Of a stretch of DNA of 64,000 nucleotides, positions 10,072 to 56,777 are shown one piece after another. Each line of letters opens with the position of its first letter. Position 1 is the stretch's first letter. The notes beneath the pieces were generated by a model, which was given only the letters and a program-made list of their open reading frames with translations, searched no databases and was not told the DNA's origin. The position numbers were made by a program, and so were the translations under genes. The stretch comes from Pseudomonadota bacterium (GTDB lineage: Bacteria > Desulfobacterota > Syntrophorhabdia > Syntrophorhabdales > Syntrophorhabdaceae): NCBI GenBank assembly GCA_026388315.1, contig JAPLKA010000055.1, positions 62,001 to 126,000 of the forward strand, written 5' to 3'.

Positions 10072-10268
10072 AAAGCAGTGAATAGTGAATGGTGAATAGT
10101 GAATAGTAGAAAAAAACCAATTACCAATTACGAATTACGGCCGATTCACAGTTCAAGGGGTCGAGGGGCCAAGGGGCCAAGGGGCCAAGAAACAAGGGTT
10201 CAAGGGTTCAAGGGTTCAAGGGTCGAGGGAAAATCATCAAAAACGTCCCACGTCCCACGTCCCACGAA
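10072..10268. repeat. Stacked 7-bp and 8-bp repeat blocks at the start of a prepilin gene
   Basis: Blocks in order: AGTGAAT units, CCAATTA/CGAATTA units, 8-bp GGCCAAGG units, 8-bp GGTTCAAG x3, and CGTCCCA x3. All but the first lie inside the open frame of the following prepilin, upstream of its GFTLIE motif. It is the longest repeat tract in the window. Confidence 0.9.
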
Positions 10269-13396: not shown

Positions 13397-14314
13397 ATGA
13401 TTGCACAGAAAAAGGTTGAAAGTCCGGAGTTTTTGTACCTGCCTCTGGAAAGTATTATTGTGGAAGAACAGATTCGCTCAGGGATTGATACGGAGAGTGA
13501 TTCCTTCAAGGCCCTTATGGAGTCCATTAAAGACCGGGGTATCTTAAGCCTGTCCTTGTAACACCGAAAGACGGCAAATACCTGCTCCTCTGCGGAGAAC
13601 GCCGTTATCTTGCCGCACAGAAGCTTGGACTCCCATCCATCCCCGTTCGGGTCATCGATGCAGTAACTCAGAAGGATGAAATCCTTGCCTTCCAGTTGAC
13701 TGAGAATCTCCAGCGGGAAGACTTTAATCCAATGGATCAGGCAAAGGGGATATTGGCATATATTCAGGCGAAACATCCCGACAAGGGATATGATGTAGAT
13801 GGGGTAATGAGCGACTTAATAAAATACGATAGAAAACCCGAACTTGTGTCAGACAAATTTCGTCGCAACTGTTGCGACTGCTCTTCAAATCTCCGGAAAG
13901 TCAACAAAGACGCTGTTCAACGGGCTATCACTGCTGAAACTTTCTCCTGAGATTCAGGCCGAAATCCGATCAGGAAATCTCCCCGTTTCCCAGGGGTATC
14001 TTTTCGCTGCAAACCTCGATTGTCCCGATCTTATGAACATCTTCACCACAGTCATACAAAAACCTGTAACCAATGCCACCCTGAGCAATCTGCTCACAGC
14101 ATACAAGAAGGTCAAGCCAGCCCCAGGTGTTACAAAGCCCATACCTATGAAGAAGCAGATTGAAAGCTTACGATCCTTTGAATCACGCATTGAAATGGGT
14201 ATTGCAAAATACACAAAGCCCGACCTTCTGCATGTTTTCTGTGCTTTAGTGGAACTGCGGATACCGATTGCCCCGGAACCTGCGCCTGAGAAGAAAAAGC
14301 CCCCTCAGGTGTGA
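13397..14314 (+). pseudogene. ParB/RepB-like partition protein, broken by two frameshifts
   Basis: Three reading frames together encode one ~305-aa ParB-family protein. Frame 1 (from ATG 13397, RBS AAGGAGG) gives EQIRSGIDTESDSFKALMES then KDRGIL. A one-base loss near 13545 shifts to frame 2, with VTPKDGKYLLLCGERRYLAA, QLTENLQREDFNPMDQAKGI and GYDVDGVMSDLI. A one-base gain in AAATTT near 13857 shifts to frame 3, with VATVATALQISGKSTKTLFN and the HTH-like SLLKLSPEIQAEIRSGNLPV. The GERRYLAA and ENLQRED motifs are the CTP/DNA-binding boxes of ParB. A palindrome lies exactly at the second break. No parA is adjacent, so this looks like an inactivated mobile-element or plasmid gene. Confidence 0.8.
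13862..13878. repeat. Palindrome inside ParB-like gene (copy A)
   Basis: GTCGCAAC-T-GTTGCGAC: perfect 8-bp arms around one base. It sits at the same codon position as the palindromes of the two other ParB-like fragments (55532 and 56519), but its arms differ. Confidence 0.85.
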
Positions 14315-14460: not shown

Positions 14461-14555
14461 AATTTATTCTGTTAACCAAAGCCTTGACTTTTATTCTACA
14501 TATGATATTATGAATTTAATAAATTCATAAATTAATAATTATAGGAGGTAAAATT

Positions 14556-55441: not shown

Positions 55442-55442
55442 T

Positions 55443-55600
55443 TCTCGGATCACTACCTGAATCTCATCGGAAAGTTTTAATAGCGAAAGCCCGTTAAACA
55501 GCGTTTTTGTTGACTTTACGGTGATTTCAAGAATTGCCGCAACCGTTGCGGCAATTGCATCAGATACCACAAAGACAGAAGATACTTGTTTTATTGGTTT
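55443..55600 (-). pseudogene. Fragment of ParB-like gene (copy B)
   Basis: The minus strand reads VVSDAIAATVAAILEITVKS then TKTLFNGLSLLKLSDEIQVV, collinear with the ParB-like pseudogene at 13.8 kb (VATVATALQISGKSTKTLFN, GLSLLKLSPEIQ). Only ~50 codons around the HTH are left, with no start and no C-terminal part. It lies between bioB and a toxin-antitoxin module and overlaps the module's promoter on the other strand. Confidence 0.75.
55532..55556. repeat. Palindrome in ParB-like fragment B
   Basis: AATTGCCGCAAC-C-GTTGCGGCAATT: perfect 12-bp arms around one base. Homologous in position to 13862-13878 and 56519-56543. Confidence 0.9.
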
Positions 55601-55616
55601 CACAATGCTACAATTG
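55586..55616 (+). promoter_or_regulatory. Toxin-antitoxin promoter with palindromic operator
   Basis: TTGTTT (55586-55591), 17-bp spacer, TACAAT (55609-55614). The palindrome TACAATTGTA overlaps the -10 box, a natural site for antitoxin autorepression. The RBS AGGAGG follows at 55621. Confidence 0.55.
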
Positions 55617-55632
55617 TAACAGGAGGTGTTGT

Positions 55633-55848
55633 ATGAGTGTAGCGATCCGCATTGATGACGAATTATACGAAGTAGCAAAACGGAGAGCCGAGGTGGAATG
55701 TCGTACGGTGCCCTTGCAGGTAGCTTACTGGGCCAAGATAGGAAGGGCCGCTCTTGATAACCCTGATCTGCCCATTGAATTCATTCGTGATATATTGGCG
55801 GCTAAGAAACAGGGAGATTTTGAACCCTTTGAATTTACCAAAGAATGA
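55633..55848 (+). CDS. ParD-like antitoxin
   Basis: A 71-aa protein from ATG 55633 behind AGGAGG; the open frame extends further back but not plausibly. MSVAIRIDDELYEVAKRRAE and RTVPLQVAYWAKIGRAAL give the ribbon-helix-helix of the ParD-like antitoxin family. An acidic/aromatic tail (FEPFEFTKE) should bind the toxin. It overlaps the toxin gene by 4 bp (ATGA). Confidence 0.85.
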   Translation: MSVAIRIDDELYEVAKRRAEVECRTVPLQVAYWAKIGRAALDNPDLPIEFIRDILAAKKQGDFEPFEFTKE

Positions 55849-56117
55849 AGACTGTTCAGACACCATACTTCAGGCGCAACTACAAAAAGCTTCATGCGAA
55901 TCAAATCAAGCCGGTATATGAAGCAATCCGGCACATTCTTTCCGATGTGTCATGTGGTGAAGAAAAAAGAGGTGATCTCGCCGGGGTACGGGTATACAAA
56001 TTCCGCGTCCTGGAACAGCAGTTTCTTCTGGCATATGGTTTCGATAAAGAAACCTTGTTTTTACTTGCCTTGGGCGTCCACGAAAACTTTTACCGGGATT
56101 TGAAAAAGGCAAGGTAA
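55845..56117 (+). CDS. RelE/ParE-family toxin
   Basis: A 90-aa toxin-fold protein: YFRRNYKKLHANQIKPVYEA, then GDLAGVRVYKFRVLEQQFLL, and LGVHENFYRDLKK at the end. The 'aGvRvyKFRv..qqfLlaY' strand pair is typical of RelE-superfamily toxins. Coupled to the ParD-like antitoxin. It is followed by 660 bp without an intact gene. Confidence 0.85.
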   Translation: MKTVQTPYFRRNYKKLHANQIKPVYEAIRHILSDVSCGEEKRGDLAGVRVYKFRVLEQQFLLAYGFDKETLFLLALGVHENFYRDLKKAR

Positions 56118-56271
56118 AATACTTCTTGTGCATTTATTTATCGGACTTGTAAGGTCTAAAGAATCCGATTGATCATGTTGAAGCATCAAACCCGGATATT
56201 CCCATCTAAGATTACGAAGCCGCAAAGTTCTTCCGGCTTTTACCGAAATAGTTAACTAAAAAGTGATGCAT

Positions 56272-56407
56272 TCGTAAAAAGTCAAAATACCGTCACTCCC
56301 GTGAAAACTGGAGTCCAGAACACATTGAAATCACTGGATGTTGCTTCGCAAGTAAAGACACCCACTTCGTAGGAATAACAAAACTACAGAAATACGACTT
56401 TTTACGA
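56272..56407. mobile_element. MITE-like element with 12-bp terminal inverted repeats
   Basis: TCGTAAAAAGTC (56272-56283) and GACTTTTTACGA (56396-56407) are perfect inverted termini around ~110 bp with no coding capacity. The interior has ACTCCCGTGAAAACTGGAGT-type partial palindromes. Its right end abuts the ParB-like fragment at 56408. It has the form of a non-autonomous transposon or palindromic repeat unit. Confidence 0.65.
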
Positions 56408-56423
56408 GACCATCATATTTACA

Positions 56424-56446
56424 TTCTCCGCCACAGTGGCGGAGAA
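56424..56446. repeat. Second palindrome in ParB-like fragment C
   Basis: TTCTCCGCCAC-A-GTGGCGGAGAA: perfect 11-bp arms around one base, with the same centre type (CAC-N-GTG) as the other three. Confidence 0.9.
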
Positions 56447-56518
56447 CCCCTCAGAAGAAAGTTTCAAAAGTAAAATCGTGCTAAGTAGCGTCCGTGTTGA
56501 CTTTACGGAGATTTGAGC

Positions 56519-56543
56519 AATTGCATTCACAGTGAATGCAATT
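56519..56543. repeat. Palindrome in ParB-like fragment C at the shared position
   Basis: AATTGCATTCAC-A-GTGAATGCAATT: perfect 12-bp arms around one base. Arms differ from copies A and B at several paired positions. Confidence 0.9.
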
Positions 56544-56619
56544 TCCTCCGATACCGAGTCGGGTCTCCTCATGGTGTTTACCAACTCGCCCATCACCCCG
56601 TCAAGTTCGTACCCCTTTG

Positions 56620-56649
56620 CCTGCCTGTGCCTGGGTTGTGGCAGACAGG
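56620..56649. repeat. 30-bp hairpin repeat, copy 2
   Basis: CCTGCCTGTGCC, 8-base centre TGGGTTGT, GGCAGACAGG: the same arms as 44365-44394. It lies at the 5' break of ParB-like fragment C. Nothing else is recognised in 56650-56777. Confidence 0.7.
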
Positions 56650-56777
56650 TTACAAATTGCCCCCAAAAACAGCACTTTAAGCCCTGAAATTGGCCATTTT
56701 CCATACATAAAACGATTTGCTTCAACGGGTTGGCTTGGTCTGACCCCAATCGGACAGTGATGACTATTCTTTATGTG

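Follow-up and report, generated by a model that had tools for sequence, protein, structure and literature searches.

The palindromes carried inside the genes of an amplified ParB family are read here as double-stranded parS-like sites of the very proteins that those genes encode, each site codiversifying with its reader; from the sequence comparisons set out below, the probability of this reading is put at about 0.86. The stretch of DNA that was analysed (the window) is 64 kb long, C55:62001-126000 of the source genome G000, a draft of 3.8 Mb. Six of its palindromes are perfect, with arms of 8 bp or longer and a centre of 0-1 nt. Four of these (A, B, C and a fourth, Table 1) had been described in an earlier note, and all four are present where it placed them, perfect and with a centre of one base. 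Palindromes A, B and C were also correctly said to share one position: each has the identical offset of 17 nt from the motif AAATCNCCGNAAAGTCAA, and about 80 copies found genome-wide by this motif alone carry a palindrome at the same offset. The observation was right and understated, there being dozens of copies beyond those of the window. In what follows, site bases are numbered k by their distance outward from the central base, which is the zero point, and residue positions (p) are counted from the Thr encoded at the centre of the palindrome.

Table 1. ParB-derived features and their palindromes in the window (window coordinates)
Feature	Position	Strand	Remarks
ParB-family gene copy A, two frameshifts	13397..14314	+	Pfam domains ParB_N and HTH_ParB
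Gene A, upstream-segment codons p-15 to p-8	13822..13846	+	Encoded residues covary with the outer bases k5-k8 of the site; coordinates approximate because of a frameshift immediately 3'
Palindrome A, GTCGCAAC-T-GTTGCGAC, putative ParB site	13862..13878		8-bp arms
Gene A, codons for GKSTKTLFNGLSLLKL, recognition-helix region	13895..13942	+	Aligns with Caulobacter ParB
Solo fragment B, ParB HTH region	55442..55573	-	tblastn-type protein match, C55:117442-117573
Fragment B, codons matching recognition helix p12-p18	55490..55510	-	Position from frame
Palindrome B, AATTGCCGCAAC-C-GTTGCGGCAATT	55532..55556		12-bp arms
Solo fragment C, ParB HTH region	56402..56638	-	Match C55:118402-118638, one TAA within
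Fourth palindrome, TTCTCCGCCAC-A-GTGGCGGAGAA	56424..56446		11-bp arms
Fragment C, codons matching recognition helix p12-p18	56477..56497	-	Position from frame
Palindrome C, AATTGCATTCAC-A-GTGAATGCAATT	56519..56543		12-bp arms

The three copies had been described as encoding the same stretch. They do share a segment, but A is a full frameshifted gene and B and C are minus-strand fragments. The read-through protein of gene A matches PF02195 (ParB_N, E=1.5e-13) and PF17762 (HTH_ParB, E=7e-5), its tblastn matches are split over three frames (C55:75397-76311), and its codons for p12, p13, p17 and p18 (13904-13924) encode residues that covary with k2-k4. Fragment B directly follows bioB, with a ParD/ParE-like pair downstream of it. 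The fourth palindrome, which the earlier note placed at the 3' end of C, is the second member of a two-site unit, with its centre about 96 bp from that of palindrome C, and not a decayed end.

Several other features were seen in the window. The pair adjoining fragment B consists of a ParD-like antitoxin and a ParE-like toxin (55634-56117), and a stretch 91% identical to this region stands beside a ParB copy in G016:C81. A MITE-like dispersed repeat with GACTTTTTACGA ends (56259-56420), which has many partial matches in relatives, abuts fragment C, and a second dispersed repeat near this fragment (56612-56752) has many 85-95% matches in related genomes. The perfect palindrome TATGAATTTAATAAATTCATA (14509-14529) lies upstream of an AbrB-like ORF and is possibly its operator. 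Short AGTGAATAGT-type tandem repeats occur between 1652 and 29627 (e.g. 10077-10107; 11 matches against 0.09 expected), and several ParB copies also have them at their ends; as such repeats occur near some ends and also elsewhere in the window, no terminal repeats could be established for the family.

Pairing of the arms was analysed across six related genomes, which gave 106 gene copies. Copies were found via a motif that lies 3' of the palindrome, which kept the search blind to the palindrome itself. A perfect or nearly perfect palindrome was present in the HTH-coding region of every gene copy (106/106); it belongs to the family and is no insertion. At k2-k7, 630 of 636 cells (99%) are Watson-Crick pairs and one is a G-T wobble; when the right arms are dealt at random among the copies, the Watson-Crick fraction is 28-53%. 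The claim that the arms differ and nevertheless stay complementary thus held up, pairing being kept across 66 distinct half-sites among the 106 copies. Positions k1-k9 are nearly always Watson-Crick and about half are so from k10, pairing reaches 12-16 bp per arm in many copies, and k0 pairs in 71%. The centre is not always AC-N-GT, as had been supposed, since ACNTT, AANGT or similar centres are found in 31 of the 106 genes and 14 of the 57 solo copies. Extra loci from other genomes, also found by the motif and in some cases already among the counted gene copies, show 7-9 of nine pairs in family members against 0-4 of nine in chance matches. No palindrome with arms longer than 6 bp was seen in the two canonical parB genes that were checked.

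The proteins score above the cut-off of TIGR00180, and the CTP-fold motifs GERR and ENLQR are present in 63 and 64, respectively, of the 66 full-length copies. The PF17762 match is barely above its cut-off, and the HTH also aligns with structure 6t1f. With the Noc equivalog TIGR04285 the scores are 78-83 bits, where the cut-off is 315, and the sites differ from NBS. The ParA-binding motif LG[RK]GL is found in none of the 66 copies, and the ParA-type Walker motif KGGxGK[ST] in none of the 43 gene-copy loci scanned. As the CTP-fold motifs are kept, the ParA motif is absent and the scanned loci contain no ParA-type ATPase motif, the family is classed as orphan ParBs. An AlphaFold model with eight relatives was weak (mean pLDDT 57.5) and served only to show how the helices near the HTH are arranged and as a Foldseek query; its best matches there were ParB, Noc and KorB (8qa8, 8qa9 and 1r71 for KorB). 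In a phmmer alignment GKSTKTLFNGLSLLKL pairs with GKSRSHVANTMRLLAL of Caulobacter ParB, and p12, p17 and p18 therefore correspond to residues 173, 178 and 179 of that protein. In ParB/Noc, parS is contacted by R173 and N178, and the four residues that switch specificity from parS to NBS include 173 and 179 (PMC7383237).

A coupling map of 104 distinct copies ties the site to these residues. The inner couplings are k2-p17 (z 48), k2-p18 (z 28), k4-p12 (z 28), k4-p13 (z 24) and k3-p13 (z 21), both k3 and k4 being tied to p12 and p13. Further out, k6 is coupled with p-15 (z 22) and k7 with p-8 (z 18), and couplings of k5 with p-13 and of k7 with p-11 were also found. Coupling is near zero past p19 and weak at p4 and p6, although these lie between the coupled positions or nearer the site, so the map shows no simple decay with distance. 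The base next to the core, k2, agrees with p17 (A or C with Asn or Arg) in 101 of 106 copies. In the table of base against residue, A goes with Asn in 54 of 56 and C with Arg in 45 of 47. Two bases further out, k4=G goes with Arg or Lys in 55 of 55. By triplet and residues, GAC is found with IR..RT or TR..RT, TTC with YP..RT, CTC with IQ..RT, AAC or ATC with IM..RT, GCA with TK..NG, and CCA with IN or IT..NG; GAA occurs where p13 is R and p17 is N. The combinations factorise, GCC occurring with IR..RT and AAA with IM..NG. Synonymous variation shows little coupling; what there is, at p11 and p14-p16, is a sign of residual linkage.

The couplings were also placed on a tree built from the rest of the protein, outside the specificity region. 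On this tree 27 changes of k2 and 28 of p17 were counted, with 25 on shared branches against 4.7 expected; 24 of these are exchanges between C-Arg and A-Asn. At p6, which lies between k2 and p17, 3 coincident changes were counted against 3.9 expected. The outer couplings are weaker in this test (k5-p-13, p=0.22; k6-p-15, p=0.014; k7-p-11, p=1.5e-7). The specificity region itself carries no phylogenetic signal when set on the backbone tree, suggesting that specificity cassettes are exchanged as units between backbones. Site and reader codons fall within about 100 bp of each other, and with such apparent exchange the branch test cannot be wholly separated from linkage.

The 57 solo copies keep the site. 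Their pairing at k2-k7 is about 98%, and at flanking positions that are 97% constant in genes their divergence is 13.4% against 2.6% in genes, a five-fold difference. The earlier note was right that pairing is maintained beyond chance. The k2-p17 match fits in 19 solos, is contradicted in 13 and is neither in 25. With the site kept and the reader lost, the solos fit sites that are read in trans. The idea that solos resemble the ParB sites of their own genome more closely than those of relatives was unsupported, exact matches being found for 13 of the 57 in their own genome, 9 in G002 and 18 in G005 and G016 together. Two-site solo units recur, with a variable site first and a TCTCCG-type site about 100 bp further along (L036, L042, L088, L089, L093 and window 56424-56543). 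TCTCCG-type sites were also seen in another flank, GATTCTCCGCAACNGTTGCGGAGAATTTGGAGATAGCC, at L298, L299 and L301, which are possibly a second subfamily of free sites.

The source genome contains about 26 genes or large pieces of the ParB family, and its short solo fragments number at least 57; a protein search of it gave 98 matches, about 30 of them large gene copies and many of them short solo ones around residues 125-220. The family is present in comparable numbers in G002 (a genome of the same genus), G005 and G016; G010 and G011 have few copies, and most other relatives searched have none beyond what is presumably their ordinary ParB. Motif matches number 13-75 in the carrier genomes G002, G005, G016 and G010 and 0-4 in the other genomes searched. 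The earlier note was right in taking the element to be dispersed and ParB-derived. The flanks of the gene copies, when compared, show no resemblance to one another, and the unit is therefore the naked gene. At the locus after bioB in G002, the only one so tested, fragment B is missing, which suggests its recent arrival in G000 or its loss in G002. A ParB piece 85% identical was seen on a contig labelled as a Thermoplasmata archaeon MAG (L072), probably a binning error. PADLOC gave weak matches only, and a scan of viral contigs with a Trichormus plasmid ParB as query gave two distant matches.

In the proposed mechanism, the palindrome is formed by the helix 1 codons of the helix-turn-helix, and those of the recognition helix, just downstream, would encode the part that reads the inner bases k2-k4. 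Codons just upstream specify a family-specific segment that probably reads the outer bases k5-k8: the covarying residues p-15 to p-8, which would touch the DNA, are inside a segment missing from canonical ParB. A dimer would read both arms, which would then have to stay complementary, and a shift of specificity would require site and reader to change together. A CTP-dependent clamp would presumably load at the site, and solo sites would be read in trans by ParBs encoded elsewhere. Besides the linkage noted above, two points stand against a parS-like site: the 12-16 bp of pairing per arm in many copies exceed what a ParB dimer should need, and the proven site of HB27 (see below) is at codon 219, unlike the position in most relatives.

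Other explanations of the palindrome were weighed. The earlier note had proposed a hairpin element, in which single-stranded DNA or RNA folded at the palindrome is a substrate for transposition or recombination or a regulatory RNA. The varying stems with a nearly constant 5-nt centre, a central pair that is often mismatched and loop-like, and solo copies that are dispersed and in tandem would all suit it. The near-absence of G-T pairs (1 in 636) and the fading of pairing in genes beyond about 10 bp per side would not, and a hairpin predicts no covariation between the arm bases and the residues by which the neighbouring HTH contacts DNA, which is what was found. Gene-borne plasmid relatives, moreover, have even centres, and thus no loop, at a comparable place, and double-stranded binding has experimental precedent (HB27 ParBm, PMC4409726). 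The hairpin is therefore unsupported and very unlikely. Quasi-palindrome correction at replication, a templated mutation that would keep palindromes perfect without selection, could account for the wobble-free pairing, that of decayed solos included, but gives no reason for the link between arm bases and specific residues, for the end of pairing near k9-k10 in many copies or for the near-absence of other such palindromes from the window; we regard it as highly improbable.

That the palindrome serves some other regulator, such as the neighbouring antitoxins, and lies in parB incidentally can be given very little credence. Copies A and B do adjoin toxin-antitoxin genes, but the flanks of the gene copies are mutually unrelated and the covariation partner is the ParB's own residues. 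Virtually no weight is left for a palindromic look due to coding constraint or recent common descent: the palindrome does sit in a conserved helix, but pairing holds over all the distinct half-sites, and the two canonical parB genes checked have no palindrome of this kind. The palindrome as a double-stranded site of its own ParB remains the preferred reading. A broader one, which we think probable, is that these are self-reading modules, in which one short DNA is both the site and the code for its reader, swapped among ParB backbones and shed as solos, with some twenty specificities per cell and a natural base-to-residue code. The cellular role is possibly autoregulation, local silencing or nucleoid organisation. 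As site and reader are paired in one DNA molecule, the recognition code of the ParB fold becomes directly readable and testable, and the family offers orthogonal ParB-parS pairs with which to label DNA. It also raises the question of why a bacterium keeps dozens of orphan ParBs of differing specificity with scattered solo sites.

The nearest parallels are on plasmids. The plasmid parB genes compared, from Thermus, Meiothermus and cyanobacteria, are about 30% identical to the family, and the first sixteen contain 10 perfect palindromes, as compared with 0.8 under codon shuffling. An even-centred palindrome is found in most of these genes, usually with the core AACGTT and with differing arms, and several are without one; the palindromes lie 21-26 codons before the recognition helix, usually 21-23, and the genes usually adjoin parA. 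In a parB gene of a Nostoc sp. UHCC 0302 plasmid (L235) one 20-bp palindrome occurs twice, 27 codons apart. ParBm of the Thermus thermophilus HB27 megaplasmid specifically binds, by EMSA, a palindrome inside its own gene (PMC4409726). This parSm site, AAGGACGCGTCCTT, is downstream of the recognition helix, and ParBm is reported to form GFP-fusion foci only when the palindrome is present. HB27 ParBm resembles the family in its in-gene palindromic site, and is of the ParB type of the plasmid relatives compared, but it is a single megaplasmid gene with a parA partner, with no amplification and no known code.

From canonical ParABS the family differs in that the ParA-binding motif is missing and the scanned loci have no motif of a ParA partner. 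KorB of IncP plasmids shares the ParB-family fold by Foldseek and has an odd-centred palindromic operator, but its operators are in promoters and we know of no in-gene covarying site. Bacillus subtilis has a single chromosomal ParB with ParA and a canonical 16-bp parS common to many sites; to our knowledge, site and reader do not vary together there. One site, parS-359, is within the gene for this ParB (Spo0J) (PMC4442127), as the sites of the amplified family are within theirs. ParB/Noc proteins have the same N-terminal CTPase fold and HTH, and the covarying positions match their residues 173, 178 and 179 (PMC7383237), but the family has about 66 distinct half-sites, an odd-centred in-gene site and its own pre-HTH segment. 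In the part of a survey available to us (PMC12704722), orphan ParB-fold proteins without parA and without the ParA-binding motif are linked to mobile elements; the family is likewise without the ParA motif and without a nearby ParA-type ATPase motif, and in-gene binding sites and a site-reader code are not described in that part. Hairpin mobile elements of the REP/IS200 type have an associated Y1/RAYT transposase and a constant stem sequence; the stems of the family are variable. A parS inside its own parB was previously a matter of isolated cases; here it is systematic and covaries with its reader over more than 100 natural copies.
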